Assembly: GCF_040412085.2 (NCBI RefSeq) | Contig: NZ_CP115920.1 | Location: 2,170,001-2,234,000 of the forward strand | Direction of reading: 5' to 3' | DNA: 64,000 nt | Origin: Vibrio sp. CB1-14 | GTDB lineage: Bacteria > Pseudomonadota > Gammaproteobacteria > Enterobacterales > Vibrionaceae | Part shown: positions 14,454 to 47,387 of the stretch, in pieces | How positions within the stretch are numbered: the stretch's first letter is position 1 | Layout of the letters: each line of letters starts with the position of its first letter | Translations under genes and position numbers: made by a program | The notes under the pieces: model-generated | Database searches by the model: none | Told to the model about the DNA's origin: nothing | What the model saw: the letters and a program-made list of their open reading frames with translations, nothing else

Positions 14454-14467
14454 GGGGGAATTCCTTT

Positions 14468-15511: not shown

Positions 15512-15623
15512 GCCACCTAAATTAATTTGTTCATTTCAATATTCTTTACACATCAACAAAACCCTTCCTTACCATAGACATAGCCTTAGAAATAGATCGT
15601 TTTGTTTTTGCCATTCTGACAGG

Positions 15624-17252: not shown

Positions 17253-18704
17253 TTAAAACAAGTCCTTCAGCTGTTGATATAGCGCTTGATAGACCAAACG
17301 TTTCTTTTTGTATTGTTCTACCGCTACTGAGTTTGGCTCATGTCTTTCAACCAGCTTTGGTGTCGGACAAATGTCATGCAGTGTTGCCCCTTCTAACGTG
17401 CCCAGAATCGCCAGTCTAGCCGCTCCTAGGGCTGGGCCTACATCACCACCTTCACGATAAACTAGTGGCATGTCTACGATATTGGCAAGCATTTGACGCC
17501 AATACTGACTGCGGGCTCCACCACCAATCAATGATACTTCTTCCGGTATATTCTTAGTCACATGCAACGCATCAAAGCCATCAGCGAAAGCAAAGCCTAC
17601 CCCTTCCATTACGGCTTGCGCGAGCTCCAAACGAGTCGTTGTATGCGTCATTCCGAAGAATACACCTTTCGCATCTGGGTTGTTGTGCGGCGTTCTCTCG
17701 CCAGAAAGGTAAGGTAAAAATACGACTTCAGATTCCTTGTCCGCTGACTGCTCAACTTGCTCAATCATGTCACCGACATTGTCGAAGTTCGTGAGTTGGG
17801 CAACCCACTTCAGACACGATGCAGCGCTCAAAATGACTGACATTGTATGCCAGGTATTCGGCAAAGCATGACAAAAGCTGTGCAGCGCAGACTCAGGATT
17901 AGAAATAAAGCCATCACTCACAGCAAAATACACCCCTGATGTTCCAAGTGACAGCATGGCTTGTCCAGGCTGAGTTATCCCAACACCCACGGCTCCAGCA
18001 GCGTTGTCACCCCCACCCGCAATAACCGGAACTGACTGCATTCCCCACTGCTTGGCAATGGATTCTGATAAATAACCGGTGACGTCTTTACCTTCAAACA
18101 ACGCCGGCATTTGCGCTAATGTTAACCCAGTGGCCTCGAGCATTTCAGTACTCCACGCTCTTAACTCAACATCAACCCAACCCGTGCCAGCAGCATCAGA
18201 CAAATCGCTAGCAAAATCGCCCGTCATTTTAAATCGGAGATAATCCTTTGGAAGCAGCACCTTATCAACCTTTGCAAAAACCTCGGGCTCGTGATTTGCA
18301 ACCCACTTCAACTTTGGTGCAGTAAAGCCAGGCATCATAATGTTGCCTGTAATCGTTCTAGAATCCGGCACCAAAGATTCAAGTTCATTACACTCTGCAG
18401 CGCAGCGGCCATCATTCCAAAGGATAGCGGGTCTCAGTACACCTCCATTCTTGTCGACAAGCGTTGCGCCGTGCATCTGACCAGAAAGGCCAATCGCTTT
18501 CACTCGGCTCAAATCAACAAGATCTCGTAAACCTTCAATGGACTCACAAGTCGCTTTCCACCAGCTTTGCGGATCCTGCTCAGACCAGAGTGGCTTAGGT
18601 CGAGACACATCGATCTCCACCGTTGTCGTTGCGAGGATTTCTCCTGACACCGTCATCACAATAGACTTTACACCCGACGTTCCTAAGTCGATTCCAATAT
18701 ACAT
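17253..18704 (-). CDS. xylB: Xylulokinase
   Basis: 483-residue cytoplasmic FGGY kinase phosphorylating D-xylulose to xylulose 5-phosphate for the pentose phosphate pathway. MYIGIDLGTSGVKSI is the N-terminal ATP phosphate loop. GLSGQMHGATLVD and LWNDGRC are xylulokinase-specific. GGGDNAAGAVGVG carries the catalytic Asp near residue 233, and SLIGGGARSQYWRQMLANI is the FGGY C-terminal signature. Length equals E. coli XylB (484). Divergent from xylR with a 231-bp shared control region, so regulation by xylose-bound XylR is likely. Confidence 0.96.
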   Translation of the reverse strand: MYIGIDLGTSGVKSIVMTVSGEILATTTVEIDVSRPKPLWSEQDPQSWWKATCESIEGLRDLVDLSRVKAIGLSGQMHGATLVDKNGGVLRPAILWNDGRCAAECNELESLVPDSRTITGNIMMPGFTAPKLKWVANHEPEVFAKVDKVLLPKDYLRFKMTGDFASDLSDAAGTGWVDVELRAWSTEMLEATGLTLAQMPALFEGKDVTGYLSESIAKQWGMQSVPVIAGGGDNAAGAVGVGITQPGQAMLSLGTSGVYFAVSDGFISNPESALHSFCHALPNTWHTMSVILSAASCLKWVAQLTNFDNVGDMIEQVEQSADKESEVVFLPYLSGERTPHNNPDAKGVFFGMTHTTTRLELAQAVMEGVGFAFADGFDALHVTKNIPEEVSLIGGGARSQYWRQMLANIVDMPLVYREGGDVGPALGAARLAILGTLEGATLHDICPTPKLVERHEPNSVAVEQYKKKRLVYQALYQQLKDLF

Positions 18705-18935: not shown

Positions 18936-20141
18936 ATGGATAAACATTTTCGAGTTACCCTACTTTTCAACGCCAACAAGGTTTACGACCGTGAAGTGAT
19001 TGAGGGGATTGGAGAGTATTTGCAAGCATCACAGTGTGATTGGGATATTTTCTTAGAAGAAGAGTTCACTACCAGCTTGGATAACTTCCATAACTGGCAA
19101 GGTGATGGGGTTATCGCTGACTTTGACGACCCTAAAATCGTTGAGCTTCTCAAAGATTCGGACATTCCAATTGTCGGCGTTGGAGGCTCTTACGAAAACG
19201 AAGACGACTACCCCAATGTACCCTACGTGGCGACGGATAACGAAGCTTTGGTAGAGCTGGCATTCCAACATCTCAAAGAAAAGGGACTTGAAAACTTCGC
19301 GTTTTACGGCAAGCCACTTGATGAGAATACCCGTTGGGCGCTTGAGCGTGAGAAGGCCTTCTCTAATATCGTCAGTCGTGAGGGCTATCCTTGCTCCATT
19401 TACCGCGGCAATGAAACCAATCCAAGTACTTGGCAATACGACATGAACCGCTTGGCCGACTGGCTTCAGCGCTTGCCTACGCCTACAGGGATCATTGCGG
19501 TAACGGACTCCAGAGCGAGACACTTACTACAAGTCTGCCAACATCTAAACATTATGGTGCCTGACAAGGTCTCGGTCATTGGTATTGATAATGAAGAGTT
19601 AGCACGATACCTAACCAGAGTGTCTCTAAGCTCTGTTGGTCAAGGTACCAAGGAAATGGGTTATCGCGCAGCAAAAATGCTCCACAAGCTGCTCGAGTCA
19701 AAGCAACAAGAACCGAGAAACAGCTCTGTATTGAAACATGCGCGTGTGATGGTACCACCAACTCAAGTATTTGAACGTCAAAGCACCGACTTCCAAGCAC
19801 TCAAAGACCCTTATGTTATTCAAGCGATGCACTTTATCCGCCACAACGCCTGTAAAGGCATCAAAGTCGACCAAGTGCTGAGCTACGTCGGGATTTCTCG
19901 CTCAAACATGGAAGCTCGATTTAAAGAAGAGTGCGGTCACTCCATTCACCAAGAGATTCATAACTCCAAGCTACGACGCGCTTCTAATCTATTGTCGAGC
20001 ACCTCCTTACCCATAGTCGAAATCGCAGAACTATGTGGCTACCCGTCGCTCCAATATATGTATACCGTGTTTAAGAAAAACCTATCCCAAACACCAAAAG
20101 AATATCGCGAATCAGGTGGCATACAACCTTGCCCTGCATAG
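18936..20141 (+). CDS. xylR: Xylose-responsive transcription activator XylR
   Basis: 401 residues, aligned by eye over its whole length to E. coli XylR. A periplasmic-binding-protein-like sensor domain (about residues 5-275: RVTLLFNANKVYDREVIEGIGEYLQ, GDGVIADFDD, GIIAVTDSRARHLLQVC, VIGIDNEE) is followed by an AraC-type DNA-binding domain (about 295-395) with helix-turn-helices around VDQVLSYVGISRSNMEARFKEE and IVEIAELCGYPSLQYMYTVFKK. It binds xylose and activates xyl genes. It is central to xylB, the ABC operon and xylA, its likely targets. Confidence 0.95.
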   Translation: MDKHFRVTLLFNANKVYDREVIEGIGEYLQASQCDWDIFLEEEFTTSLDNFHNWQGDGVIADFDDPKIVELLKDSDIPIVGVGGSYENEDDYPNVPYVATDNEALVELAFQHLKEKGLENFAFYGKPLDENTRWALEREKAFSNIVSREGYPCSIYRGNETNPSTWQYDMNRLADWLQRLPTPTGIIAVTDSRARHLLQVCQHLNIMVPDKVSVIGIDNEELARYLTRVSLSSVGQGTKEMGYRAAKMLHKLLESKQQEPRNSSVLKHARVMVPPTQVFERQSTDFQALKDPYVIQAMHFIRHNACKGIKVDQVLSYVGISRSNMEARFKEECGHSIHQEIHNSKLRRASNLLSSTSLPIVEIAELCGYPSLQYMYTVFKKNLSQTPKEYRESGGIQPCPA

Positions 20142-22806: not shown

Positions 22807-24195
22807 TTAACCAAGTTCAGCATTGTGTGAAGCAGGCTTAACCTGTTCTTTTTGCTTAGCATCGAGCGTCAGCATCGCTTTGATTTGATCAAGTTTTGCA
22901 TTGTCTAACTTGTAGAACATCATGAAGATGGCAACCGACGCATAGAACACTCCAGGGATAACCGTAAACAGTAAGTTGATAGCCATTACCGCACTCTCGG
23001 TCTGAGTCTCAGCGCCGCCAACATAACCCGAAGCCGCAAGCAACCAACCTACTGATGCTCCGCCCAGTGCAATACCGAGCTTGATAGCAAACAAATTCGT
23101 CGAAAACACCATGCCGCTGAGCGAACGATTACTTCTGGTTTTCTCATAATCGACGATATCTGACATCATGCTCCATAAGATCGGAGTTGTACTCATCTGT
23201 ACCACACCCAATATGATGACCAATGCAAACACCATAAACACGTTTTGAGGATCAACTAAGAACAACACAGCAGATAGGAATCCTGACGCAACAATTAGCA
23301 CGCGATAAATTTTAGGCTTATCTAAGTGGCCAAGTAGTGGAGCTGAAATCATGGCACCCGCAATGTTGGCTAGCATGCCTGCGACCATAAACATTGTTGC
23401 TAGATCAGGTCGACCCATCACAGTGTTGACGTAGTACATGGTAGACGCCCCTTTTAGCACCACACCGGTAAGGAGAATCACATTGACGATGAAAAGAATG
23501 CGCCATTGATTGTTCTTCATTAGAAGCTTAAGGTCATGAAGTACCGATTGCTGAGCCTCTTGGCTTGGAACGTAACGCTCTTTCGTATTAGCAAAGCTAA
23601 AAAAGAAAAGTCCAATTGCACCTAAGCCCATGATAGCCATTGCACCAAGGTAGCCCTTTTGCACGTCTCCTTGCCCAATGACATCGACCAGTGGTAACGC
23701 CAACATAGCAACAACCAAGCCACCTGCCGTACTCAATGCAAAACGATAAGACTGAAGTGACGTTCTCTCTTTAGGATCATTGCTTAATGCATTTGCCATT
23801 GCGCAATAAGGAACATTGATTGCGGTATACATGAGCGTGAGGAAAATATAGGACACGTAGGCATAAACTACCTTGCCTGTAGGTCCAAAATCAGGGGTAA
23901 AGAATGCTGCCATACAAGCGAGTCCAAATGGGATAGCCATCCACAATAGATATGGTCGATAGCGACCATGCTTTGAGCGGGTTCTATCCACAATTGAGCC
24001 CATAATTGGGTCGGTTACCGCATCAATAAAACGGACAAGAAGAAACATGGTTCCCATGTGTGCCGGTGATAGACCATAAATATCTGTATAAAAATAAGCC
24101 AAAAACAACATTACGGTCTGCCAAACAAAATTACATCCCGTATCGCCTAATCCATAAGCCACTTTTTCCCTTACGGACAACCTAACTGCGTTCAT
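22807..24195 (-). CDS. GPH-family sugar:cation symporter (xyloside/xylose transporter)
   Basis: 462 residues, 12 predicted membrane spans (MFS_2/GPH group: MelB, XynP, XylP). REKVAYGLGDTGCNFVWQTVM is the standard N-terminal block. DAVTDPIMGSIVDRTRSKHGRYRPYLLW is the GPH loop 2-3 signature with the Asp cation ligand. ALSNDPKERTSLQSYRF and MSDIVDYEKTRSNRSLSGMVFS are further family blocks. I choose the ATG at 24195, with GGAG 7 nt upstream, over the TTG five codons earlier. Divergent from xylA and probably co-regulated with it. Strongly similar to the second GPH protein at 32143-33531. Confidence 0.9.
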   Translation of the reverse strand: MNAVRLSVREKVAYGLGDTGCNFVWQTVMLFLAYFYTDIYGLSPAHMGTMFLLVRFIDAVTDPIMGSIVDRTRSKHGRYRPYLLWMAIPFGLACMAAFFTPDFGPTGKVVYAYVSYIFLTLMYTAINVPYCAMANALSNDPKERTSLQSYRFALSTAGGLVVAMLALPLVDVIGQGDVQKGYLGAMAIMGLGAIGLFFFSFANTKERYVPSQEAQQSVLHDLKLLMKNNQWRILFIVNVILLTGVVLKGASTMYYVNTVMGRPDLATMFMVAGMLANIAGAMISAPLLGHLDKPKIYRVLIVASGFLSAVLFLVDPQNVFMVFALVIILGVVQMSTTPILWSMMSDIVDYEKTRSNRSLSGMVFSTNLFAIKLGIALGGASVGWLLAASGYVGGAETQTESAVMAINLLFTVIPGVFYASVAIFMMFYKLDNAKLDQIKAMLTLDAKQKEQVKPASHNAELG

Positions 24196-24525
24196 ATTTA
24201 ACTCCACCAAATTTCGCTTGGAAATTATTCTTCATGGTTAGAGGCGCTTAATCAACTTACCCTATTTGGTTATCAAATTACGATATTTCCCATCTGTGAT
24301 GCTTATCTACAACCGCGACACCCGTGTAATTTTTAATTATTAATAATCAACAAGTTAAGTTCATTACGCATTTTCAACTCTATTTAATTAACGTCAATTT
24401 TGAGAACTAGAGCACATTTAATAAATAGGTGAATTTTGGTATCAAAAATCGTAATTGATGACCCTCTTGAAAAATAACAAGATGAATGCGAACAAAGTCC
24501 ACAACCACGATTTGGAAATTAGGCT
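24196..24525. promoter_or_regulatory. Shared control region GPH symporter / xylA
   Basis: 330-bp AT-rich divergent promoter region. Two related elements stand out: around 24266-24286 (TTTGGTTATCAAATTACGAT) and around 24436-24462 (TTTTGGTATCAAAAATCG, then TGATGACC). Both share GGT(T)ATCAAA-N3-CG in the same orientation and could be XylR sites. Confidence 0.4.
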
Positions 24526-25845
24526 ATGAGTGAATATTTCAAGAACATTAAGAAAATCAATTTTGAAGGTAAGGATACAACAAACCCTTTAGCATTCCGT
24601 CACTATGACCCGGATCGTATGATTCTGGGCAAGTCGATGAAAGACCACCTGAGGTTTGCAGCGTGCTATTGGCACAACTTCCGCTGGCCAGGTGCTGACA
24701 TCTTTGGTGATGGTACTTTCAATCATGAGTGGTTAAAGGCTTCGGATCCAATGGAACAAGCTCGCATGAAAGCGGACGCAGCATTCGAGTTTTATACCAA
24801 GCTGAATGTGCCTTATTACTGCTTCCACGACACGGATATTGCGCCAGAGGGCAACTCACTAAAAGAGTACGTTAATAACTTCCAAACAATGGTTGACGTA
24901 TTTGAGCAAAAGCAAGTAGAAACAGGCATGAAGCTACTTTGGGGTACGGCAAATGCGTTCTCTAATCCTCGTTACATGGCTGGTGCAGCAACGAACCCAG
25001 ATCCTAAGGTATTCGCTTACGCTGCAACACAGATTTTCAATGCAATGAATGCAACTCATCGTCTGGGTGGTGAAAACTATGTATTGTGGGGCGGCCGTGA
25101 AGGCTACGAAACTCTGCTAAATACAGACCTTCGCCAAGAACGTGAGCAACTTGGCCGTCTAATGCAGATGGTCGTTGAGCATAAACACAAGATCGGTTTC
25201 AAAGGCGCAATTCTGATTGAACCAAAACCTCAAGAGCCGACGAAGCACCAATACGACTATGACACAGCAACAGTGTACGGCTTCCTAAAACAGTTTGGTC
25301 TAGAGAACGAGATCAAAGTAAATATCGAAGCAAACCACGCGACTCTAGCAGGTCATAGCTTCCACCACGAAGTGGCAACGGCTACGTCTTTAGGTCTGTT
25401 CGGCTCTATTGATGCGAACCGCGGTGATGCACAACTTGGGTGGGATACAGACCAGTTCCCTAACAGTGTTGAAGAAAACACATTGGTTATGTACGAAATC
25501 CTGAAAGCAGGTGGCTTCACTACCGGTGGCTTCAACTTCGATGCTCGCGTACGTCGTCCATCTACTGACCTAGAAGATTTCTTCCACGGCCATATTGGCG
25601 GTATGGATACGATGGCGCTAGCGCTAGAGCGCGCAGCAGACATGATTGAAAACGATGTGCTTTCTAAAAATATCGCGCAGCGTTACGCAAGCTGGAATGA
25701 AGACCTAGGCAAGAGAATCCTTGGTGGTGACCTAAATCTTGAACAGCTAGCGACACTTTCAGTTGAGAAAAACATCTCACCGGTTAAGGAGTCAGGTCGT
25801 CAAGAGTACCTAGAGAACATCGTTAACGGTTTCATCTATAAGTAG
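24526..25845 (+). CDS. xylA: Xylose isomerase
   Basis: 439-residue cytoplasmic enzyme interconverting D-xylose and D-xylulose. The catalytic pair His101/Asp104 falls in [11 protein letters not shown] at the same numbers as E. coli Xyl[41 protein letters not shown] and [17 protein letters not shown] contain the two-metal site ligands. Length equals E. coli (440). A terminator follows before the GH43 genes. Confidence 0.97.
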
Positions 25846-25923: not shown

Positions 25924-27540
25924 ATGACTATGCATCAAATTAATAATCCGGTTTTACGAGGCTTCAACCCTGATCCATCCATATTGCGTGTTGGTGACGA
26001 CTACTACATCGCGACTTCGACCTTTGAGTGGTTTCCGGGTATCCAAATACACCACTCAAAGGATCTTGTGAACTGGAGTCTGGCCGGCCATGTTCTCACC
26101 CGAAAGTCACAATTAGACATGACGGGTATGGATAACTCTGAAGGGGTCTATGCGCCAACTCTGAGCTACTCTGATGGTAAGTTTTGGGTCTGTTATGCCA
26201 ATGTACATTCTTGTAAGGGCGGTACTTGGATGGCAACACCAAGCTTTGTGGTCACAGCCGAAAGCATCGAGGGACCATGGAGTGAACCTATGTCGATTGG
26301 CAACTATGGCTTCGACCCCTCTTTGTTCCATGACGATGATGGCAAAAAATACATGCTAAATATGGTCTGGGATGGGCGTTCAAACACTAACTTCTTTGGT
26401 GGCATAGTCCTGCAAGAGTTCGATGCAGAGGAAGAAAAGTTAATAGGGTCGGTGCACAACATTTTCCCCGGCACACATTTGGGCTGTACGGAAGGCCCAC
26501 AGATGCTAAAACGCAATGGCTACTACTATCTTATCACTGCAGAAGGTGGTACCGAACGCAATCATGCAGTCACTGTATGTCGCTCAAAAAACCTATTAGG
26601 TCCATACGAAGTGCATCCTAAGAACCCGATTCTAACGAGTCGCTTTCAAGAAGATGCCGAGTTATCGCGAGCGGGTCATGGCTTCCTAGTAGAGACACAA
26701 AACGGTGAATGGTACTTGAGCCATCTTTGTAGTCGACGAATCCAGAACCCAGAGGGTTATCAGTTCATCCCTAAATATGACAATGGCTTCTCTATTCTAG
26801 GAAGAGAAACAGCACTGCAAAAAGCCCACTGGCTGGACGACTGGCCATATGTCACATCTGGCAAGACACCTCTGATTACAGTAAAGGCGCCGGAATTGAC
26901 GCCTTCCCTTTGGCCAGTCGAGCAAGAGAAAGACGACTTTGACGATAGTCAGTTAAACATTAACTTCCAAACACTCAGAGAGCCCCTAGATGAATCTTGG
27001 GGATCATTAACCGAGCGTCCAGGTTTTTTAAGATTGAAAGGTCGTCAATACCTCTATTCTCGTTATCAAAACAGCCTTATTGCGCGCCGCTTCCAAAGCC
27101 ACTACGCACTGATTGAAACTAAGATGGAATTCGCTCCTACGTCCCCCTATCAGATGGCCGGGCTATGTGCTTACTACGCGAGAAACGGCCACTACTTTTT
27201 GAAAATGACCAAAGATGATATGGGGCAAAACGTACTACAGGTCGTTGGGAACATTAACGATCAGTATCAAGAATATGGTGAGCCTCTATCCATTAAAGAT
27301 ACCGACACCGTATACATGCGGCTAAGCCTCGAAAAACAATGGTATCAGTTCAGCTACTCCCTCGACGGCGAACGCTGGTCAAATCTCGGCGCCGCTTTGA
27401 ACAGCACTCCGCTATCCGATGAAGGCGGCCCAGATATCTTCCGATTTACTGGAAGCTTTGCTGCACTATTTGCCTGTGATATCACCGGCCAAAATGCACC
27501 TGCCGACTTCGATTACTTTATTTATCGTGAGCTTGATTAA
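25924..27540 (+). CDS. GH43 beta-xylosidase (subfamily 11-like), with C-terminal beta-sandwich
   Basis: 538 residues, no signal peptide, so cytoplasmic. The five-bladed propeller occupies about residues 6-320 with the catalytic triad Asp17 (FNPDPS), Asp131 (GFDPSLF) and Glu190 (CTEGPQM), spaced as in the Selenomonas xylosidase SXA (14/127/186). The C-terminal ~200 residues form the DUF1349/GH43_C2-like jelly roll (LIARRFQSHYALIETKMEF). Releases xylose, and often arabinose, from non-reducing ends of short xylosides. Two in-frame ATGs lie at the start. Paralogue of the GH43 at 30522-32132. Confidence 0.93.
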   Translation: MTMHQINNPVLRGFNPDPSILRVGDDYYIATSTFEWFPGIQIHHSKDLVNWSLAGHVLTRKSQLDMTGMDNSEGVYAPTLSYSDGKFWVCYANVHSCKGGTWMATPSFVVTAESIEGPWSEPMSIGNYGFDPSLFHDDDGKKYMLNMVWDGRSNTNFFGGIVLQEFDAEEEKLIGSVHNIFPGTHLGCTEGPQMLKRNGYYYLITAEGGTERNHAVTVCRSKNLLGPYEVHPKNPILTSRFQEDAELSRAGHGFLVETQNGEWYLSHLCSRRIQNPEGYQFIPKYDNGFSILGRETALQKAHWLDDWPYVTSGKTPLITVKAPELTPSLWPVEQEKDDFDDSQLNINFQTLREPLDESWGSLTERPGFLRLKGRQYLYSRYQNSLIARRFQSHYALIETKMEFAPTSPYQMAGLCAYYARNGHYFLKMTKDDMGQNVLQVVGNINDQYQEYGEPLSIKDTDTVYMRLSLEKQWYQFSYSLDGERWSNLGAALNSTPLSDEGGPDIFRFTGSFAALFACDITGQNAPADFDYFIYRELD

Positions 27541-27603: not shown

Positions 27604-28608
27604 ATGACCCATGCTACCGCTGAAAAAAAACCGACAAAAGCAATATCAGAGCCACTGGTAACGCATATCTATACTGCTGACCCTTCGGCGCATGTCTTTA
27701 ACAATAAAATCTACATCTATCCTTCCCACGATGTAGAGAGCGAGATGCCGCAAAACGACGCAGGGGATCACTTTGATATGCGTGATTACCATGTCATTTC
27801 ACTTGATGACGTGGGTGGAATCACCACAGACCATGGTAATGCCCTCGACATCAATGATGTTAAATGGGCTGAACGACAAATGTGGGCACCTGATGCTGCG
27901 CAAAAAGACGGCAAATACTACCTCTATTTTCCTGCTAAAAACTATCAAGGCGTGTTCCACATTGGTGTAGCGGTTAGTGATAGTCCAACCGGGCCATTCA
28001 TCCCTGAAGATACCCATATCGAAGGCACCTTTAGTATTGATCCAGCCGTTTTCCAAGATGATGATGACCAATACTATATCTACTTTGGCGGGATCTCTGG
28101 CGGGCAACTTCAAAACTGGACTGAAGGTAAGTTTGGCGACGAGCAATACCCTTCACATGATCAAACAGCGCTTTGTCCATTAGTTGCTAAACTTGCTGGT
28201 TCAATGGTTGATTTGACAGAAACGCCTAGGGATCTGGTGATCATCGACGAAAATGGTGAACCTTTGTTAGCTGGTGATAACGAGCGTCGCTACTTCGAAG
28301 GCCCGTGGATGCATAAACACAATGGCAAGTACTACTTCTCATACTCAACTGGTGACACTCACAAAATCGTCTATGCGACCAGTGACTCGCCTTATGGTCC
28401 CTTCACCTATCAAGGCGTTATCCTAGAGCCAGTCGTCGGTTGGACTACACATCATTCCGTAGCCCAGTATCAAGGCAAATGGTATTTGTTTTATCACGAT
28501 AGTTCGCTGTCAGGTGGTCAAACACATTTGCGCTGCATCAAGATGACAGAGCTTGTTCATGATGAAAATGGTCGCATTCAAACGATCTCACCTTACAAAG
28601 ACCTCTAG
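27604..28608 (+). CDS. GH43 glycosidase (single-domain, xylosidase/arabinofuranosidase type)
   Basis: 334 residues without signal peptide. Propeller fold with likely catalytic residues Asp26 (YTADPSAHVF), Asp146 (FSIDPAVF) and Glu232 (YFEGPWMH). The plan YPSHD...MWAPDAAQKDGKYYLYFPA is typical of compact GH43 members (perhaps subfamily 1) acting on arabinoxylan fragments. It lies 63 nt after the previous GH43 and is probably co-transcribed. Subfamily and exact specificity are inference. Confidence 0.87.
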   Translation: MTHATAEKKPTKAISEPLVTHIYTADPSAHVFNNKIYIYPSHDVESEMPQNDAGDHFDMRDYHVISLDDVGGITTDHGNALDINDVKWAERQMWAPDAAQKDGKYYLYFPAKNYQGVFHIGVAVSDSPTGPFIPEDTHIEGTFSIDPAVFQDDDDQYYIYFGGISGGQLQNWTEGKFGDEQYPSHDQTALCPLVAKLAGSMVDLTETPRDLVIIDENGEPLLAGDNERRYFEGPWMHKHNGKYYFSYSTGDTHKIVYATSDSPYGPFTYQGVILEPVVGWTTHHSVAQYQGKWYLFYHDSSLSGGQTHLRCIKMTELVHDENGRIQTISPYKDL

Positions 28609-28688: not shown

Positions 28689-28715
28689 AAGCGCGTGAAA
28701 CTCATTCACGCGCTT
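28689..28715 (-). terminator. Terminator of the xylonate operon
   Basis: Perfect 11-bp stem AAGCGCGTGAA (28689-28699) / TTCACGCGCTT (28705-28715) with a 5-nt loop; on the minus strand followed by TTTTTTATTT. A smaller GC palindrome with T-run just before it (about 28635-28654) serves the plus-strand GH43 genes. Confidence 0.9.
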
Positions 28716-28744: not shown

Positions 28745-30535
28745 CTAGTGATTGTGTCTTGGAAGCGTCTTAGACAACCTATCAAATTTAAGAGCACTAT
28801 CGAACACCGCACCTTCATCCATTTGTGTTACCGATTGACGATAAATCTCTTGCCAAGGGGTCTGACTTGCAGGCACTGATGGTAGACCTCGTGATGCTTT
28901 TCTCTGCTGCCACTCTTGCTCAGAAACTAAGACGTTGCACCGGCCTTTATTGAGGTCAACTTGAATCCTATCCCCAGTATCAAGATAGGCTAATCCACCA
29001 CCCGCTGCGCTTTCCGGAGACGCATGCAGAATCGAAGGGCTGTCTGAGGTACCAGATTGCCTGCCATCCCCCAAAGTCGGTAGGCTTTGAATACCACGCT
29101 CTAACAGATGCTTGGGTGGTTGCATGTTGACGACTTCAGCAGAGCCAGGCCAGCCAAGAGGTCCGCAGCCGCGAATGACCAATATGCAATTTTCATCGAT
29201 ATTCAGACTCGGATCATCGATACGTCTATGGTAGTCCTCGGAACCATCGAAGACGATGGCTCTCGCCTCAAACACGCCTTCCTTGCCAGGGACTTGCAGA
29301 TACTTTTGTCTGAATTCATCCGTGATTACACTGGTTTTCATAATCGCGAAGTCAAACAAGTTGCCCTTCATTACGATAAAGCCAGCGTTGTGTTTCAGTG
29401 GCTCAGAATATGGATAAATCACCTTACGGTCATTCGTTTCTCGACCCTCAAGGTTTTGGCTGATCGTCCTGCCCGTAACCGTCAGCGCATTTCCATCAAG
29501 CTGGTCGTTTTGCAACAGCTCCCACATCACCGCAGGAACACCTCCTGCTCGATGAAACGCTTCACACAAATATTCCCCCGAAGGTTGCACGTTGGCGAGT
29601 AGCGGAATTTTATGTGAGTATTGTTCCCAATCCTCTGCGGTTATCTCAATTTGAGCATGTTTCGCCATCGCGACCAAATGCGGCTGAGCATTAGTAGAAC
29701 CACCAATCGCAGAGTTCACTCGAATCGCATTCAAAAAGGCGGGTTTGGTCAAAATCTTCGACGGTCTTAAATCCTGATACGCCATCTCTACAATCTGCTT
29801 CCCAGTGTAATAGGCCATCTGTCCCCTTTCCCTATAAGCAGCAGGTATAGCTGCACTGCCGGGTAAAGTAAGACCTAGAGCTTCCGCCATCGCGTTCATC
29901 GTTGAGGCCGTGCCCATGGTATTGCAGTGACCAACTGAAGGCGCAGACTTCATAGCAAGATCCATAAACTGCTGCTCATCAATCTCCCCAGCAGCAAGCT
30001 TTCTACGCGATTGCCAAATGACTGTTCCCGAGCCTACTAACTTATCCTCATGGTGGCCATCTAGCATGGGACCACCGGAGAACACGATAGCGGGAATGTC
30101 TACCGTCGATGCTGCCATCACCGCTGAAGGCGTGGTTTTGTCACAGCCCGTGGTTAGCACGACTGCATCGATTGGGTAACCGTAAAGGATCTCCACTAAT
30201 GAAAGATAAGCTAAGTTACGGTCAAGCGCTGCCGTTGGGCGCTTGCAGTTTTCAAATAGTGGATGTGTTGGGAATTCCAAAGGAATTCCCCCCGCCTCTC
30301 GAATGCCATCTTTAATGCGAGATGACAGCTCTAGCAACACGCGATTGCAAGGCGACATATCACTCCCTGATTGAGCAATACCTATGATGGGTTTACCCGA
30401 ATGCAGCTCCTCAGGGGTCAATCCCGAGTTCATAAATCGCTCAGAGTAGAGCGCTGCTAAGTCAATGTGTTCTTCGTTGCAAAACCAATCTTGCGAACGA
30501 AAGCGCACATTGGGGCGATCGTTATTTCGGCTCAT
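28745..30535 (-). CDS. xylD: D-xylonate dehydratase (IlvD/Edd family, Caulobacter XylD type)
   Basis: 596 residues. Dehydrates D-xylonate to 2-keto-3-deoxy-D-xylonate with an Fe-S cluster and Mg. Cys63 (SPCNR), Cys131 (TTGCDKTTPSA) and Cys204 (GHCNTMGTASTMN) match the [2Fe-2S] ligands of Caulobacter crescentus XylD (60/128/201). The whole protein reads as a close homologue (RFRSQDWF, ALYSERFMN, SLPTLGDGRQSGTSDSPSIL, TLPRHNH C-terminus). I start at the ATG at 30535 with GAGGAA upstream; it overlaps the preceding GH43 by 14 nt, showing translational coupling. Some relatives act on L-arabinonate, so xylonate is very likely but not proven. Confidence 0.9.
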   Translation of the reverse strand: MSRNNDRPNVRFRSQDWFCNEEHIDLAALYSERFMNSGLTPEELHSGKPIIGIAQSGSDMSPCNRVLLELSSRIKDGIREAGGIPLEFPTHPLFENCKRPTAALDRNLAYLSLVEILYGYPIDAVVLTTGCDKTTPSAVMAASTVDIPAIVFSGGPMLDGHHEDKLVGSGTVIWQSRRKLAAGEIDEQQFMDLAMKSAPSVGHCNTMGTASTMNAMAEALGLTLPGSAAIPAAYRERGQMAYYTGKQIVEMAYQDLRPSKILTKPAFLNAIRVNSAIGGSTNAQPHLVAMAKHAQIEITAEDWEQYSHKIPLLANVQPSGEYLCEAFHRAGGVPAVMWELLQNDQLDGNALTVTGRTISQNLEGRETNDRKVIYPYSEPLKHNAGFIVMKGNLFDFAIMKTSVITDEFRQKYLQVPGKEGVFEARAIVFDGSEDYHRRIDDPSLNIDENCILVIRGCGPLGWPGSAEVVNMQPPKHLLERGIQSLPTLGDGRQSGTSDSPSILHASPESAAGGGLAYLDTGDRIQVDLNKGRCNVLVSEQEWQQRKASRGLPSVPASQTPWQEIYRQSVTQMDEGAVFDSALKFDRLSKTLPRHNH

Positions 30536-32132
30536 AGCTAAATTCCTCAAAATCAGCATGGCAGCCAAAGCCACTGATATCCGCGCAATGCAAACCGACA
30601 AAGGCGCCGGTAAAGAAGCCACGACCATCAATGTAATCATCAGATAGACGCCAAGCATCAAACACTACTGGCACGTCATGCCAATTTGTTCCGTCGAAAG
30701 AGTAGCTGTACTGATACGTCAATCCATTGACATTGACTCGCATCCAAATTGACGTCGTATCATGCTGTACGATAATTGGCTCATCGTACATATGGAAGCT
30801 CGCCGCTTGCTTGTCTACCTGCATAACACGAATACAGTTCTTCTTGAGTTCTTCGTCAAATTCAACCGCAAGGTAAGTCCAGTTGCTGGTGTTGTAGTAG
30901 CAACAAAGGCCTGCTGATTGCTGGAAGTTGGTAGAGTTAAACTCTAGCTTGGTAGAAGCGACAAACTCATGGTGTCGCCAACGAGTTGCCACCGTTGACT
31001 GCTCAAACAGAGATAACAGACTGTCGTTACCACGCAAACGCAGGTAGCCTTCGCGTTCATTTAGGCTGCCCAGTTTATCGCTAAACGGAATACGCAGCGT
31101 TTGCCAATGACCTTGTAGCGACTCACTGCTAAAGTCATCATAAATCGCTTCACTTTCAGCTTCGCTTGTAACGCCGAAGTCGGCTTCTGGTATCTCAAGT
31201 TTTGCAAAGTTACCACCGACCACCATCGGCCAGCCATCTTTCCACTCCAAACGGTCAATGCCCGTCTCACGTCCCATAGAACATGCTCCGCGCCCCCATC
31301 TTGCAAGTCTTGGACGGCCAGGGAACTTAAGTGGGCGACTCACTAGATAGGTGATATACCATTCGCCATCAGGAGTCTCTACCAATGACCCGTGACCTGC
31401 TTTTTGCAGTGGGTTGTTTGGTGTGTGCCACGTAGACATAAGGGCACCATGCGGAGACAGCTCATAAGATCCATAGATGTCTTTAGAGCGAGCAACTGTT
31501 ACATGATGTTCAAAGCTCGTGCCACCCTCTGCAGTGATGAGATAGAAATAATCATCCTTTTTGTAGATGTGTGGTGCTTCCGTGTACTTGAGATCGGTGC
31601 CATCAAAGATTGAGCGTCGGTCTGTGACAAACTTATGTGTCTCTGGATCGTACTCTTGAATCACGATCTCGTTGATTGGGTCGCTGTGATTTCGTGGCCC
31701 CCAAGTTCGATAAACGTAGTACTTCTTACCATCTTCACCGTGGTGTAACGAAGGGTCAAAGCCACCATTACCCATCGGGATCGGGTCACTCCAAGGACCT
31801 TCGATATTGTCCGCGGTTACTAGATAGTTACGACCATTTTTCCATGGTGCATCGATGACTTTTACATCGGTATACAGTAGCCAGAATTTACCGTCAGCAT
31901 AGCTAAGTGCCGGTGCCCAGATGCCGCCTGAATCAGGGTTACCTTTCATGTCCAACTTTTCTACCGTATCGAGCGGCATCGACGCCAGTTTCCAGTTTTT
32001 CAGATCCTTAGAGTGGAAAATACGCACGCCCGGAAACCACTCAAACGTTGATGTTGCGATGTAGTAGTCATCCCCTGCTCGGCAAATACATGGGTCTGGG
32101 TGAAAGCCTTTAAGAATTGGATTATTGATCAT
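30522..32132 (-). CDS. GH43 beta-xylosidase (subfamily 11-like), second copy
   Basis: 536 residues, cytoplasmic. Catalytic residues read as Asp13 (FHPDPC), Asp126 (GFDPSLH) and Glu185 (YTEAPHI). Propeller (about 1-310) plus C-terminal beta-sandwich (about 345-536: VATRWRHHEFVASTKLEFN). The acid Glu motif is TEAP instead of the TEGP of the first copy. ATG at 32132 with AAGGAA 7 nt upstream. Third gene of the aldolase-GPH-GH43-dehydratase operon, 10 nt behind the transporter gene. Confidence 0.93.
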   Translation of the reverse strand: MINNPILKGFHPDPCICRAGDDYYIATSTFEWFPGVRIFHSKDLKNWKLASMPLDTVEKLDMKGNPDSGGIWAPALSYADGKFWLLYTDVKVIDAPWKNGRNYLVTADNIEGPWSDPIPMGNGGFDPSLHHGEDGKKYYVYRTWGPRNHSDPINEIVIQEYDPETHKFVTDRRSIFDGTDLKYTEAPHIYKKDDYFYLITAEGGTSFEHHVTVARSKDIYGSYELSPHGALMSTWHTPNNPLQKAGHGSLVETPDGEWYITYLVSRPLKFPGRPRLARWGRGACSMGRETGIDRLEWKDGWPMVVGGNFAKLEIPEADFGVTSEAESEAIYDDFSSESLQGHWQTLRIPFSDKLGSLNEREGYLRLRGNDSLLSLFEQSTVATRWRHHEFVASTKLEFNSTNFQQSAGLCCYYNTSNWTYLAVEFDEELKKNCIRVMQVDKQAASFHMYDEPIIVQHDTTSIWMRVNVNGLTYQYSYSFDGTNWHDVPVVFDAWRLSDDYIDGRGFFTGAFVGLHCADISGFGCHADFEEFSYEPK

Positions 32133-32142
32133 TGTGGGTTCC

Positions 32143-33531
32143 TTACTTAGCAACTGCAGGTGTGAGTTCTTCTTGGTCATTGTCTGTCGTCTGATTCTTG
32201 CGTTTCGCTTCAAGAGTCGCAGCGACCTCGTTAATTGTTTTGGTATCTAGTCTGTATATGGACAGCATGTAGTACATACCCGCGTAGAGAATTACTGGCG
32301 CGACACAGAACAAGAACTTAATAGTTTGTAGAATATTGTCTGGTTGAACATCGAGTGAGGCGTCATAACTCATCCATGCGAGAACCCAGCCGATTAACGC
32401 ACCACCGATTGCCAATCCCATTTTTAGGCTGAACAGGTATGTCGCGAAGACCAGCCCATCTAGTCGACGGCCACTTCTTACTTCTTCATAGTCAATCACG
32501 TCAGAGGCCATTAGCCATTGCACCGGTGTTGTTGTGTTGAAGATAAATAGGTAAACAATGTTGATAGCAAACAGCATTACCGTGTATTCCGCTGGTGCAA
32601 AGTACAGTGCCAAGCTCAGAATTGAGTAAACGATGATAATGATCTTGAACGATTGGATTCGGTCATACTTAGCGAGTAAATGTGCCGATAGAAGCGATCC
32701 CAGCATCGCAGCAATACTTCCGTACAACAGGAACTGACTGGTCAGCTCTGGGCGCTCCATTACGTACTTAACAAAGTACAGCGTCACACCACCACGAATA
32801 ACGTTTGAACACGTTGCCATGGATTTAAACAGACACATGATGCGCCATTCACGGTTAGCAAACAGTAACTTAAAGTCCTTAGAAACGTTAACTGAGCTTT
32901 CTTCATCAAACACGTTTCTTTCGCGTGTCGTCTTAAAGCTAATTGTCAGTAGGATGGCGCCAACGACACCCAAAATACACATTGCGCCAAAATAGCCTCG
33001 TTGTGCATCACCCTGACCGATAATGTCTACTAACGGTAGCGCAACACCGGAAATAACAAGGCCACCAGCCGCTGCACAGAAGAATCTAACTGATTGTAAC
33101 GAGTGACGTTCTTGTGGATCATTGGTGATCGCTCCTGGCATCGCACAATATGGAACGTTGATAAAGGTATACACCAGCGTCAACGAGATATAGGTGATGC
33201 TGGCGTAGATAATCTTACCTATCTCAGAGAAGTCCGGCGTATAGAAGGTCGCCATACTCGTAAGTGCAAACGGTATGGCACCCCACAATAGGAAAGGACG
33301 GAAGCGTCCAAACCTGGTGCGAGTTCTATCGACCAACGATCCCATTAGAGGGTCTGTAATCGCATCCAGAATACGAGAGACAAGAAACAATGTCCCCATT
33401 ATCCCAGCAGGTATGCCGAAAACATCAGTGTAAAAGAACGCAAGAAGTATCATGGTTGCGTTCCAGATAAATCCACAAGCCGTATCACCCAAGCCGTAGC
33501 CGATTTTTTCTTTGAGGGAGATCTTTTCCAT
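32143..33531 (-). CDS. GPH-family sugar:cation symporter, second copy
   Basis: 462 residues, 12 predicted spans. LKEKIGYGLGDTACGFIWNATMILLAFFYTD, DAITDPLMGSLVDRTRTRFGRFRPFLLWG and MASDVIDYEEVRSGRRLDGLVFATYLFS are the GPH signatures. Similar throughout to the xylA-linked symporter. ATG at 33531, 3 nt after the aldolase stop, so it is translationally linked. It sits with a GH43 xylosidase and sugar-acid enzymes and probably brings in xylosides (or an aldonate-capped xyloside). Confidence 0.9.
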   Translation of the reverse strand: MEKISLKEKIGYGLGDTACGFIWNATMILLAFFYTDVFGIPAGIMGTLFLVSRILDAITDPLMGSLVDRTRTRFGRFRPFLLWGAIPFALTSMATFYTPDFSEIGKIIYASITYISLTLVYTFINVPYCAMPGAITNDPQERHSLQSVRFFCAAAGGLVISGVALPLVDIIGQGDAQRGYFGAMCILGVVGAILLTISFKTTRERNVFDEESSVNVSKDFKLLFANREWRIMCLFKSMATCSNVIRGGVTLYFVKYVMERPELTSQFLLYGSIAAMLGSLLSAHLLAKYDRIQSFKIIIIVYSILSLALYFAPAEYTVMLFAINIVYLFIFNTTTPVQWLMASDVIDYEEVRSGRRLDGLVFATYLFSLKMGLAIGGALIGWVLAWMSYDASLDVQPDNILQTIKFLFCVAPVILYAGMYYMLSIYRLDTKTINEVAATLEAKRKNQTTDNDQEELTPAVAK

Positions 33532-33534
33532 TTT

Positions 33535-34449
33535 TTACCCTTTGATGATGTTGGTGGTTTGCAATAGTTCACGAATGCGAACGGCAGCGCTGTCAGAGAT
33601 TGAATCGCAAGGAGCCATCGTGCCTTGACTGAACTCGACCCCAACTAAGTTGATCGCTGCTTTGACGACTGGAAAGAATGGCGCCTGAATCTGGTACATC
33701 TCACTAAGCTCAGACACTCGACGATGCTGGTTCATAAACGTGTCCCAGTCTCCCTTTTGGAAGGCTTGATACACACCGCACGTCAGACTTGGCGCGAAAT
33801 TGGAGGAAGAAGGAATCGCGCCGTCACCACCAATGAGCAAATTGTTAGCCAAATGCTCATCAAACCCAGACAAGATACGGAAGTTAGGATGTTTCGCCTT
33901 TACCTTCATCACATAGTTACGTGTGCTTACAATCTCATCAACGGTATCTTTGATGCCGATGATGTTCTCGACATCGTTCGCAAGGCGCTCAACAAGTTCT
34001 ACCGATAGAAATTGAGATGTTAGCTTAGGGAAGTTATACAGAAATACTGGTGCATGTATCGACTCAGCGACGGAGCGGTAATAAAGGTAAAGCCCTTCAT
34101 CACTGTATTTCACATATGACGGATTGACGACGATGACCGCATCTGCACCAGCCTCTTCCGCATGCTGTGCGAGTTCAATCGTTTCAGCAATCGAGTGAGC
34201 AGCCACACCAATCATGACGGGTTTACGCTTATTGGTATGTTGAATACAAAATTCAGCAATTTGCTTTCTCTGTTCCTTTGGCATCGCGCTAAACTCGCCA
34301 ATGGTACCGAGAAATAGCATCCCGTTTACCTCAGACTCCACTATGTGATCGATTAATATAGCCATGTCTTTCGGTACAAACTGTCCCGTCGCATCGATGG
34401 CCGTTGGAACTGGAGGAATAACTCCTTCCCAGCTATTTTCCATTGTCAT
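33535..34449 (-). CDS. 2-dehydro-3-deoxy-D-pentonate aldolase (YagE/YjhH-like, DapA superfamily)
   Basis: 304-residue (beta/alpha)8 aldolase. Schiff-base Lys167 lies in NIIGIKDTVDE and the partner Tyr138 in VFLYNFPKLTSQ. GIIPPV-like start (EGVIPPVPT), FLGTIGEFSAM and ILSGFDEHLANNLLIGGDGAIPSSSNFAP follow E. coli YagE closely. YagE/YjhH split 2-keto-3-deoxy-xylonate into pyruvate and glycolaldehyde, the step after the xylonate dehydratase encoded in the same operon. First gene of the operon. A dihydrodipicolinate synthase role is unlikely given the context and the YagE-like residues. Confidence 0.87.
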   Translation of the reverse strand: MTMENSWEGVIPPVPTAIDATGQFVPKDMAILIDHIVESEVNGMLFLGTIGEFSAMPKEQRKQIAEFCIQHTNKRKPVMIGVAAHSIAETIELAQHAEEAGADAVIVVNPSYVKYSDEGLYLYYRSVAESIHAPVFLYNFPKLTSQFLSVELVERLANDVENIIGIKDTVDEIVSTRNYVMKVKAKHPNFRILSGFDEHLANNLLIGGDGAIPSSSNFAPSLTCGVYQAFQKGDWDTFMNQHRRVSELSEMYQIQAPFFPVVKAAINLVGVEFSQGTMAPCDSISDSAAVRIRELLQTTNIIKG

Positions 34450-34558: not shown

Positions 34559-34570
34559 GTTACCGGTAAC
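34559..34570. promoter_or_regulatory. GntR/IdnR-like operator GTTACCGGTAAC
   Basis: A perfect 12-bp palindrome about 110 bp upstream of the aldolase start. It resembles the E. coli gluconate repressor operator core (TGTTACCGGTAACA), a LacI-family site for sugar-acid genes. The regulator itself is not in the window. Confidence 0.55.
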
Positions 34571-40909: not shown

Positions 40910-42190
40910 ATGTACCATCTTAGAAAACTTCCTGTTGCCGTAGCAGTGGCTGCATCTCTGGTCTCTTTTTCATCTTTTTCAGAAACTGAAAGTAACAATT
41001 CGGCTCAAATTGAAGAGCTTACAAAACGTATTCAAGAGCTGGAAACTAAAGTTCAAGAAACGGATTATATTTATGACCAACAGCCAGCCGTTCTCACTCC
41101 GGATTTTGAGCCACCTCAAGGCCTTATTTTCTCTGGTTATGCTCGTTATGGCATGCACTATTCAGATAGCGACTCAGCTTATATTGATGTCGGTAGTTCT
41201 GGTCGCTCAGTGGGTCGTCTTGGTAACGAAGCAAACGGTGGTGAAATCCAGTTTGCGTACGCTAAAAAAGCAGATAACGGCGCGGTATGGGACATTGTTG
41301 CCATGTTTGACCAATGGGGCAACCGCGCCTGGGGCTCAGAAGGTGGTGTGAACCTTAAGAAAATGTACGCAGGCGTAACTAATGTCTTCGAAAGCCAACC
41401 AGAGCTATACATGTGGGCTGGTCGTGACTTCCACCAACGTCCTCAACAGGGGCTAAACGACTACTTCTGGATGTCACATGATGGTCAAGGTGGTGGTTTC
41501 AACAACTTAAATCTTGGTGGTGTCAAACTTGATATGGGTATAGTGGGTCAGGTCGATTCTGAAACGGGCGCACTAGGCAACGACAACGGCAAGTACGCAC
41601 TAACGTCAAAACTACACGGCATTGACTTAGGGATTGGCGCTCTGGATCTCTATGCTAACTACGGCTTTGCATCGAAGCAGGCGGATGTATCTGTTCAAGA
41701 CAATAATTCTTGGCAACTGGGTGCGACGTTGGGTCTTGGTGCATCAAACAAGTTCGTTTTTAAGTATGCGGACAACTCAGACAACAGCGCTTTCGATTTG
41801 AACGATGATCTTAAAGTCATCTACGCGAGTTTAGAAGGTGGTATTAGCCCGACGGATGCATTTAAAGTGGATTACCTAGCCTCTTTTAAACAACTAAACG
41901 GTGAAGACACGTCGGATCGCAATGAATACTCTGTTATTGCTCGTCCTATGTACCAATGGGATGACGTTCATTCTACCTGGTTAGAAGCGGGTTATGCGAT
42001 GGAAGATCACGATGACAACACTGAGAAAAAAGGTTGGAAAGTGACGCTCTCTCAAAACGTATCACTTGGTGGTTTGCCATGGAGCCGTCCAATGCTGCGC
42101 TTCTACGTAACAGCAGGCGACGTTAAAGCAACTGACGTTGAGAAAGTTGATACGTTAGCAGCTGGCGCAATGTTTGAAGCATGGTGGTAA
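40910..42190 (+). CDS. LamB-type carbohydrate porin
   Basis: 426 residues. Sec signal peptide (about 1-24), then a short coiled coil (about 30-50: QIEELTKRIQELETKVQE) as in ScrY-like porins, then an outer-membrane beta-barrel. GYARYGMHYS, GRLGNEANGGEIQFAYAKK, YMWAGRDFHQRP, LNDYFWMSHDGQGGGF and the terminal AMFEAWW are LamB-family landmarks. A trimeric channel for oligosaccharides. Located at the edge of the beta-glucan locus with its own strong terminator, it probably admits cello- or other beta-gluco-oligosaccharides. Confidence 0.9.
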   Translation: MYHLRKLPVAVAVAASLVSFSSFSETESNNSAQIEELTKRIQELETKVQETDYIYDQQPAVLTPDFEPPQGLIFSGYARYGMHYSDSDSAYIDVGSSGRSVGRLGNEANGGEIQFAYAKKADNGAVWDIVAMFDQWGNRAWGSEGGVNLKKMYAGVTNVFESQPELYMWAGRDFHQRPQQGLNDYFWMSHDGQGGGFNNLNLGGVKLDMGIVGQVDSETGALGNDNGKYALTSKLHGIDLGIGALDLYANYGFASKQADVSVQDNNSWQLGATLGLGASNKFVFKYADNSDNSAFDLNDDLKVIYASLEGGISPTDAFKVDYLASFKQLNGEDTSDRNEYSVIARPMYQWDDVHSTWLEAGYAMEDHDDNTEKKGWKVTLSQNVSLGGLPWSRPMLRFYVTAGDVKATDVEKVDTLAAGAMFEAWW

Positions 42191-45660: not shown

Positions 45661-45872
45661 AAACCAACTATTACTAGCGTGCGTGATCTAAATCAAATAA
45701 TAAAGTCAGATACATTCAACTAACGGTTCAAGCTCTCCAATACACATCCACACAAGTTCACAAAATTCCTACAAACGCATATTTATCATCTATTACAAAC
45801 TTTAACCCTCTTCTTACCATTGCTATTTTTATTATTGAAAGAAACGCATCATTAATAAGGAAATCATTGGTT

Positions 45873-47387
45873 ATGAAACGCACTAAATTATGTAATTTAT
45901 CGATAGGAAAAAGAGTTCTTTCCTTGACGTTACTGGCAGCTTCCACTCAGTTGGCATATGCCGTTGAACCGCTCACTGTTTCTGGCAACCAGGTGTTAGC
46001 TGGGGGCGTCGCTCAGAGCTTTGCTGGCTCAAGTTTATTCTGGAGCAACACCAATTGGGGTGCAGAGCGATTCTACACTGCCGCGGATGTTAAAGCTGCG
46101 AAGACAGAACTCGGGGCAACGTTAATCCGCGCTGCAATAGGCCATGGCGCAACCGGGGGTCTAGAAGATGACTGGAGTGGTAACATGGCAAGGCTCGAAA
46201 CCGTTATCGAAGCCGCTATTGCTGAAGATATGTATGTCATCGTTGATTTCCACAGTCACTATGCTCATAACGACTGGGCTCGTGCTGAAGCGTTTTTTAC
46301 CCACGTAGCAACCAAATATGGCCACCATGACAATATCATTTATGAGGTCTACAACGAGCCACTCCAAGTCAGCTGGAGCAATGATATTAAGCCATATGCC
46401 GAGTTCATCATCGACAAGATTCGAGCTATTGACCCTACGGGAATCATCGTCGTCGGCACGCCTAACTGGTCTCAAGATGTGGACATTGCCTCTTACGACC
46501 CTATTAATCGCCCTAACATTGCTTATACCATCCACTTTTACGCGGGCACCCACGGTCAATCTCTGAGAAACAAAGTGCTCACCGCCTTAAACAATGGCAT
46601 TGCCCTATTTGCTACTGAGTGGGGCACCGTTAACGCAGATGGTGATGGTGCGGTCAATCAAGGTGAAACAGATGCCTGGATGGAGCTGTTCAAGACATAC
46701 AACATTAGCCATGCGAACTGGTCGGTCAATGACAAAGCAGAAGGCGCATCTATGTTCACTCCTGGTGGTAGTTGGGGCAACTACACGGAATCGGGTTTGA
46801 AGGTAAAAGAGATCATTTCTAACTGGCCAACGAGTGCTGGAGGCGGTGGTGGCGAAAGCGATCTCACGGGTCCTTGTAGCGTAACTGCCCTTCCGGGTCG
46901 CATTGATGCGGAAAGTTTTTGCTATGCGAAAGGGTTAAAATTTGAAGATACAACCGACGCAGGTGGAGGCCAAAACCTTGGCTTTACCGATGACGGTGAT
47001 TGGATAACATTTGACATTGATGCTCCTAAGGCAGGCAAGTACGAAATCACTTACCGAGTCGCTTCTGAGCACGCAAATGCTGGTGTGATTCAGATAGAGC
47101 AAGGCGGTGGAAACGTAACGTATGGTGAAATTACGGTAAGTGGTACCGGTGGATGGCAAAGCTGGCAAAACATCACTCATACCATTTCACTGCCGGATTC
47201 AGGTCAACATACCGTGGCGCTATTCGTTAAAACTGGTGGTTGGAACTTAAATTGGTTCGAAATGAAACCAGTTGATGGAGACGTTACTCCTCCTACCGGA
47301 TCTTGTGACAACGTCACTACTCATCCAAACTGGCTTCACGCTGACTACGAAGGCGGTCCAAATACGCACTTGCTTGAAGGTTTATGA
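45873..47387 (+). CDS. Secreted GH5 endoglucanase with CBM6, C-terminal CBM cut by a frameshift
   Basis: 504 residues in this frame. Signal peptide about 1-30 (ending AASTQLAYA). GH5 barrel (about 31-330) with acid/base Glu162 (YEVYNEP) and nucleophile Glu249 (FATEWGT); subfamily 2-like. A Gly linker (AGGGGGES) leads to a CBM6-like beta-sandwich (about 345-470: [13 protein letters not shown]...[13 protein letters not shown]), then [26 protein letters not shown], the start of a second module, and a premature stop. The next frame continues that module to 47472. An upstream TTG at 45867 with closer AGGA is an alternative start. It should still be an active cellulase; the missing tail would alter binding. 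Confidence 0.9.

Follow-up and report, generated by a model that had tools for sequence, protein, structure and literature searches.

What does the tightly packed four-gene operon on the minus strand of a 64-kb stretch of the Vibrio sp. CB1-14 genome do, and what controls it? The stretch (64,000 nucleotides; hereafter the window) is part of a 3.5-Mb contig, one of three that make up a 5.54-Mb genome, and the operon runs from 34449 to 28745 in the order aldolase, GPH symporter, GH43 protein and IlvD/Edd dehydratase, converging on a xylA cluster. An earlier interpretation made without database searches (the sequence-only reading) had proposed a non-phosphorylative, Dahms-type D-xylonate pathway here; domain matches confirm the family of each gene and find all four where that reading had put them. 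Our analysis indicates that the four genes probably form a D-xylonate (Dahms) catabolic operon of the Escherichia coli yagEFGH kind, with a non-orthologous dehydratase. We base this on homology to yagE, yagG and yagH, and on the membership of the dehydratase in the clade of Caulobacter crescentus XylD, whose loci mostly have an XylX-like gene nearby. The operon and its flanking elements are as follows.

34559-34570, no strand assigned, perfect palindrome GTTACCGGTAAC, candidate GntR-type operator, 109 bp before the aldolase ATG
33535-34449, minus strand, YagE-type 2-keto-3-deoxy-xylonate (KDX) aldolase of the DHDPS family, 304 aa, first gene, with YagE as its best Protein Data Bank (PDB) match
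32143-33531, minus strand, GPH-family symporter of YagG type (MFS_2/GPH), 462 aa, scoring 695 bits against a cut-off of 610 on NF007237, 'putative symporter YagG'
30522-32132, minus strand, GH43 beta-xylosidase-like protein of YagH type (GH43 and GH43_C2 domains), 536 aa, 62% identical to YagH
28745-30535, minus strand, IlvD/Edd dehydratase of the C. crescentus XylD (D-xylonate dehydratase) clade (ILVD_EDD_N and ILV_EDD_C domains), 596 aa, 980 bits to PDB entry 5OYN
28689-28715, minus strand, terminator-like hairpin ending the operon, 11 pairs followed by a T-rich tail

Aldolase and symporter genes are separated by 3 bp and symporter and GH43 genes by 10 bp, while the GH43 and dehydratase genes overlap by 14 bp. 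The probable starts of the last two are ATG 30535 (596 aa) instead of TTG 30661 for the dehydratase, and ATG 32132 (536 aa) instead of TTG 32213 for the GH43 protein. Terminator-like hairpins in the region as a whole are not clearly in excess (8, against a shuffle mean of 5.6 with a standard deviation of 2.3).

The aldolase had been read as YagE/YjhH-like, and YagE is indeed its best match among solved structures (268.8 bits, 44% identity; the next non-YagE chain scores 132.5). It keeps the stretches IGIKDT and YNFP, which we take to have catalytic roles. Among the best 120 of 172 relatives at E 1e-60 or better, the closest are 90%, 78% (Vibrio rhizosphaerae) and 75% (Vibrio sp. 10N.286.49.C2) identical, and the remaining matches listed are at 52% or less.

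The best solved relative of the dehydratase is 5OYN, the C. crescentus D-xylonate dehydratase, with 71.4% identity over 584 positions. It is not of the YjhG/YagF type: the yjhG_yagF model TIGR03432 gives 161.5 bits against a cut-off of 808, and identity to YagF is 33.5% over 439 positions. The L-arabinonate dehydratase model scored 533 against a cut-off of 882. For comparison we drew 398 genomes of the phylum, 114 of which had an NF009560 match at E 1e-190 or better (at most three candidates were scored per genome), and searched by tblastn for neighbours at all 85 listed places scoring at least 972 bits besides the window, some of whose stretches end at contig ends. In a quick tree of 96 rows (95 plus 5OYN), the window dehydratase fell inside a 19-row clade with 5OYN (Shimodaira-Hasegawa-like approximate likelihood ratio test, 99). 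A careful tree of 43 of these rows, hand-chosen for spread (the 19 clade rows, 24 of the 72 others and none of the five outgroup rows), returned the identical clade with 100/100 support. The 96-row tree carried a warning that locus L006 is among long branches; the XylD clade is unaffected. The trees place the enzyme with XylD, and homology supports its assignment as a D-xylonate-type dehydratase, the solved C. crescentus enzyme being a member of the clade.

Gene neighbourhoods point the same way. The clade consists of 5OYN, three Vibrio rows and 15 non-Vibrio loci. Of these 15, 13 have an XylX-like gene (FAA-hydrolase family) within ~9 kb, compared with 9 of the 70 loci outside the clade; for a xylose dehydrogenase (XDH; at least 50% identity) within the same distance, the counts are 10 of 15 and 1 of 70. 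The loci that supplied the queries are counted too: L116 (outside the clade) for XylX and L141 (inside) for XDH. Of the two queries, that for the dehydrogenase scores above the NCBIfam XylB cut-off (431 against 400), and the XylX-like one, which we take to be a KDX dehydratase, has a weak Pfam match (31.9 bits). At two loci (L114 and L115, in genomes G473 and G269), XylD relatives at 72-73% identity have no XylX or XDH nearby, and their neighbours by eye are purA, RND efflux and sensor kinase genes.

The iron-sulfur cysteines 63, 131 and 204, which had been matched to Caulobacter XylD from the sequence, do align with Cys60, Cys128 and the third cysteine of the C. crescentus enzyme (CcXylD), numbered 200 in PMC5770437 and 201 by our own count. 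All 15 checked residues of those named in that paper are kept in the window dehydratase, including the [2Fe-2S] cysteines, the Mg ligands, the base Ser490, the C-terminal His and Leu26, Glu29 and Arg30 of the recognition helix. Related rows outside the clade share them almost throughout (69 to 72 of 72), so these catalytic residues do not discriminate the XylD clade. A separate set of 15 columns, picked for contrast, is fixed in 19 of 19 clade rows and in at most 10 of the 72 others; all match the window dehydratase, and they include F91, N93 and C94 around the Mg ligand E92, plus W458 and D494.

How the operon is controlled is suggested by the palindrome. We found GTTACCGGTAAC by comparing aldolase upstream regions and recognised the motif only afterwards. 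Its spacing to the aldolase ATG is 109 bp in the window and 110 bp in Vibrio sp. 10N.286.49.B1 (genome G162, locus L004), where the exact sequence occurs once, before the aldolase. The window likewise holds one exact copy, and its genome (G000) two: one at the operon and one at C1:1021634, upstream of gntK-edd-gntR. In that cluster Edd scores 839 bits against a cut-off of 708, the GntK/IdnK-type kinase 179 against 114, and GntR 417 against 433, just under. The GntR consensus, as given in PMC10450161, is ATGTTACCCGTAACAT. Upstream of E. coli gntK are two sites one mismatch from GTTACCGGTAAC, while nothing closer than five mismatches lies upstream of E. coli yagE or yjhI. The Vibrio GntR matches E. 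coli GntR at 186 of 331 positions, including 42 of its first 62 residues. Since GTTACCGGTAAC resembles the GntR gluconate operator, control of the operon by GntR through this candidate site is plausible. We also considered XylR or CRP control and discarded it, finding no convincing box common with the xylA or xylB upstream regions.

We next asked where xylonate would come from. The absence of a xylose dehydrogenase from the operon had been remarked on and a genome search proposed; we found no XylB-type XDH over the cut-off in any of the three Vibrio genomes with the operon (G000, G162 and a third, G130, with locus L079), in a search that left aside Gfo/Idh-type XDH. Nine SDR matches in the window genome were rejected as candidates, the best reaching 144 bits against a cut-off of 400 and appearing by eye to be FabG beside a FabD-like gene. 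No membrane pyrroloquinoline quinone glucose dehydrogenase was found in the three genomes. A lactonase search of the window genome gave one SGL gene (C2:431602-432321), with a FucO-like gene (476 bits against a cut-off of 523) ~3 kb away at C2:435544, and around the two we recognised by eye no xylose or sugar-acid gene. Because no XylB-type XDH passes the cut-off, xylonate probably enters the pathway by import and not through oxidation of xylose.

The sequence-only reading had suggested xylonate-capped oligosaccharides released by oxidative enzymes as a source. This is not supported so far: one LPMO_10 (AA10) gene, with GbpA domains, is present in the window genome and none in G162 or G130, in a search confined to this oxidase family. 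The GH43 gene in the operon transcript leaves some room for the idea. Fungal oxidation of xylan and xylo-oligosaccharides is a published subject (PMC8612270, PMC9730589), which makes xylobionate a possible natural substrate.

The operon is rare. XylD-type genes (at least 977 bits on NF009560) occur in 3 of the 227 genomes of the genus, namely G000, G162 and G130; three further genomes, scoring 738-746 bits, pass the cut-off of the NF009560 family. Among 394 genomes drawn across the order, only G000 and G162 gave a match at E 1e-280 or better, and a scan of the genome collection returned three loci with a window-type dehydratase, the nearest in Vibrio sp. 10N.286.49.B1 (89%). All three Vibrio genomes keep the order aldolase, GPH symporter, GH43, XylD. 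The convergent xylA cluster is also present in G162, and the 20-kb stretch of G130 examined contains no xylA. In the protein database, identity among the best 120 of 7851 dehydratase matches drops directly from 96% to 74%; this set is incomplete, as the 89-90% Vibrio copies are absent from the matches listed. Plasmid-borne dehydratase relatives reach 72.8% (Sinorhizobium), and a separate record from Gallibacterium salpingitidis (P0129) is 73% identical. Plasmid relatives of the GPH and GH43 proteins (for GH43, the best 25 of 40 records) were set aside as independent context, those at 60% or above being the same six E. coli records with the yagG/yagH locus.

Other loci met in the survey carry gene sets of their own. 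Next to the G130 operon (L079:15661-19901), a TRAP transporter and a regulator of the GntR superfamily (HutC/PhnF-like) accompany an amidohydrolase-like gene that weakly matches 4-sulfomuconolactone hydrolase; they may give G130 a sugar-acid uptake system of its own. Five genomes of the genus, G117, G116, G175, G180 and G107 (L013-L017), have other NF009560-like dehydratases, 38-40% identical to that of the window. At ten loci (L089-L097 and L101), a 59-61% identical dehydratase stands with SDRs, an NAD-epimerase-like gene and a KDPG-aldolase-family gene in a distinct conserved sugar-acid cluster.

From gene identity and order, clade membership, catalytic residues and the operator-like match, each read directly in the sequence, we infer the substrate, its transport, GntR binding and the fate of glycolaldehyde. 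The YagG-type symporter would import xylonate or xylosyl-xylonate, and the GH43 enzyme would trim off any xylose. The XylD-type [2Fe-2S] dehydratase would convert xylonate to KDX, which the YagE-type aldolase would cleave to pyruvate and glycolaldehyde, while xylose set free would enter the adjoining XylA/XylB route. Repression would probably be by the gluconate repressor GntR via the palindrome 109 bp upstream. A more ambitious version, which we regard as possible but doubtful, is that xylonate catabolism is wired into the GntR regulon, one sugar-acid signal opening both routes, with the YagG/YagH pair importing and trimming xylosyl-xylonate (xylobionate), the xylose going to XylAB and the xylonate to XylD/YagE.

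Several observations weigh against the xylonate reading or its proposed control. XylX-like context also occurs at the nine loci outside the XylD clade noted above, and both XylX and XDH are absent from the neighbourhood of 2 of the 15 clade loci. Hexonates, too, are substrates of XylD-type enzymes; according to PMC5770437, CcXylD accepts those with the same C2/C3 configuration. With the hint of a gluconate signal in the GntR-type site, this means that the in vivo substrate may be broader. AldA glycolaldehyde dehydrogenase falls under the cut-off of 500 in G000 (392 bits) and G130 (394), whereas G162 has two matches above it (544.6 and 516.1); the glycolaldehyde dehydrogenase matches at C2:408 kb and 413 kb in G000 lie by eye among putrescine/agmatine genes. 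FucO is likewise under the cut-off in G000 (best 495 against 523). A broad dehydrogenase or reductase may handle glycolaldehyde.

As for the operator, the G130 genome has no exact GTTACCGGTAAC, the best match before its aldolase having four mismatches. In none of the three genomes does the looser pattern GTTACCNGTAAC outnumber its reversed control (forward/reverse 3/2 vs 3/5 in G000, 3/4 vs 5/4 in G162 and 0/1 vs 2/3 in G130), so the operator argument rests on the positions of the matches. By eye, four of the five non-palindromic GTTACCNGTAAC places in G162 lie beside genes resembling gntK or gntR and the fifth beside a GH1-like gene, the one place in G130 adjoins a gntK-like gene, and the third place in G000 is inside a chemoreceptor-like gene. 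One in 500 dinucleotide shuffles gave a shared exact stretch of at least 13 bp. The longest such stretch in the real sequences, however, is not the palindrome but a T-rich block of 14 bp. We discounted this conserved T-run upstream of the aldolase as low-complexity sequence.

The GntR-type operator would be accounted for if the operon were a non-phosphorylative Entner-Doudoroff side branch for gluconate, cleaving 2-keto-3-deoxy-gluconate to pyruvate and glyceraldehyde; the exact palindrome in G000 is shared only with gntK-edd-gntR, RefSeq names YagE a 2-dehydro-3-deoxygluconate aldolase, and the hexonate acceptance of CcXylD noted above fits as well. We consider this unlikely, as the dehydratase clade stands mostly beside xylose-oxidation genes, the partner genes (GH43 and YagG-type) speak for xylosides, and the genes of the phosphorylative gluconate route (gntK, edd) are already present. 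The operon could instead serve another sugar acid of plant or algal polymers, such as L-arabinonate, with the GH43 protein as an arabinosidase. The GH43 family includes xylosidases and arabinosidases alike, and dehydratases of the wider family adjoin several other gene sets, yet the 15 contrast-picked clade columns all match the window enzyme and the L-arabinonate dehydratase model falls below its cut-off, making this somewhat less likely still. Rarity (3 of 227 genomes), the differing genes upstream in L004 and L079 and the location of the E. coli counterpart in a cryptic prophage might suggest a silent, horizontally acquired assembly. The four frames, however, are open in all three genomes although their proteins differ by 9-25% from those of the window, which argues for selection on the operon and makes a silent cassette highly improbable.

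The neighbouring xylose cluster, which includes a GH3 gene, lies to the left of the operon:

27604-28608, plus strand, third GH43-family protein (domain match), converging on the operon
25924-27540, plus strand, second GH43 and GH43_C2 protein (domain match), xylA cluster
24526-25845, plus strand, xylA, xylose isomerase, convergent cluster, 700 bits against a cut-off of 533 on TIGR02630
22807-24210, minus strand, second GPH symporter (YagG subfamily), xylA cluster, 733 bits on NF007237
20253-22658, minus strand, GH3 family glycosidase (domain match)
18936-20141, plus strand, xylR, with PBP1_XylR (165 bits) and AraC domains
17253-18704, minus strand, xylB, xylulokinase, 591 bits against a cut-off of 380 on TIGR01312

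XylA, XylB and XylR, which had been read beside the operon, each score as such in profile searches. Two GPH and GH43 sets thus stand side by side (22807-24210 with 25924-27540, and 32143-33531 with 30522-32132); the two GPH copies are 46% and the two GH43 copies 43% identical mutually, and the operon pair is nearer YagG/YagH. Farther out, 13200-16706 holds a solute-binding-like protein (by eye; no NCBIfam match at 1e-40) followed by two ABC ATPases, of which 14468-15511 scores as UgpC and the second is 15624-16706; no permease was read among the three genes. Further polysaccharide genes, to the right, encode a LamB-family porin (40910-42190) and a GH5 cellulase that carries CBM6/CBM35-like modules (45867-47387).

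The chemistry proposed here is already known; the gene combination is unusual and rare. What is new, as judged from sequence comparison, is that YagF is replaced by a XylD dehydratase and that GntR plausibly controls the operon. YagG- and YagH-type genes beside two different xylonate dehydratases in two lineages provide comparative evidence for a role of symporter and glycosidase in xylonate metabolism, with the caveat that the aldolase is also common to both, so that the assembly is not fully independent. Import and trimming of xylobionate, if true, would suggest a substrate for E. coli yagG and yagH, and pathway builders may profit from a XylD dehydratase that is naturally paired with a YagE-type aldolase. 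In literature pairing Vibrio with xylonate, titles and abstract openings showed nothing on xylonate breakdown in the genus.

The closest counterpart of the window operon is the E. coli K-12 yagEFGH/xynR D-xylonate operon in the CP4-6 prophage; the sequence-only reading, which homology supports on the XylD-type dehydratase and YagE-type aldolase of the pathway, overlooked this operon. According to PMC13279387 (2026), E. coli lacks xylose dehydrogenase and encodes the remaining steps in yagEFGH and yjhIGHF: yagF and its second-operon counterpart encode xylonate dehydratases, YagE and YjhH cleave KDX, and uptake is assumed to be via YagG and YjhF. RefSeq labels YagE a 2-dehydro-3-deoxygluconate aldolase. 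The window operon has a homologous aldolase (44% over 289 positions to YagE), symporter (67% over 447 to YagG) and GH43 protein (62% over 533 to YagH), and no XylB-type xylose dehydrogenase passed the cut-off in this organism either. It differs in having a XylD-type dehydratase in place of YagF, the order aldolase-GPH-GH43-XylD, no XynR or YjhI homolog in the window (tblastn: XynR best E 0.69, YjhI none at E 1) and, unlike yagE and yjhI, a GntR-type palindrome upstream. With the Caulobacter xylXABCD (Weimberg) system it shares the 71% identical dehydratase and its named catalytic residues; unlike that system, the window has no relative of XylX, alpha-ketoglutarate semialdehyde dehydrogenase, XDH or the SGL lactonase (tblastn, E 1e-12), and the YagE-type aldolase of the operon would take the Dahms branch. 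The perfect core palindrome, finally, is like that of the gluconate regulon of the LacI-family GntR, whereas its presumed target here is a pentonate operon.

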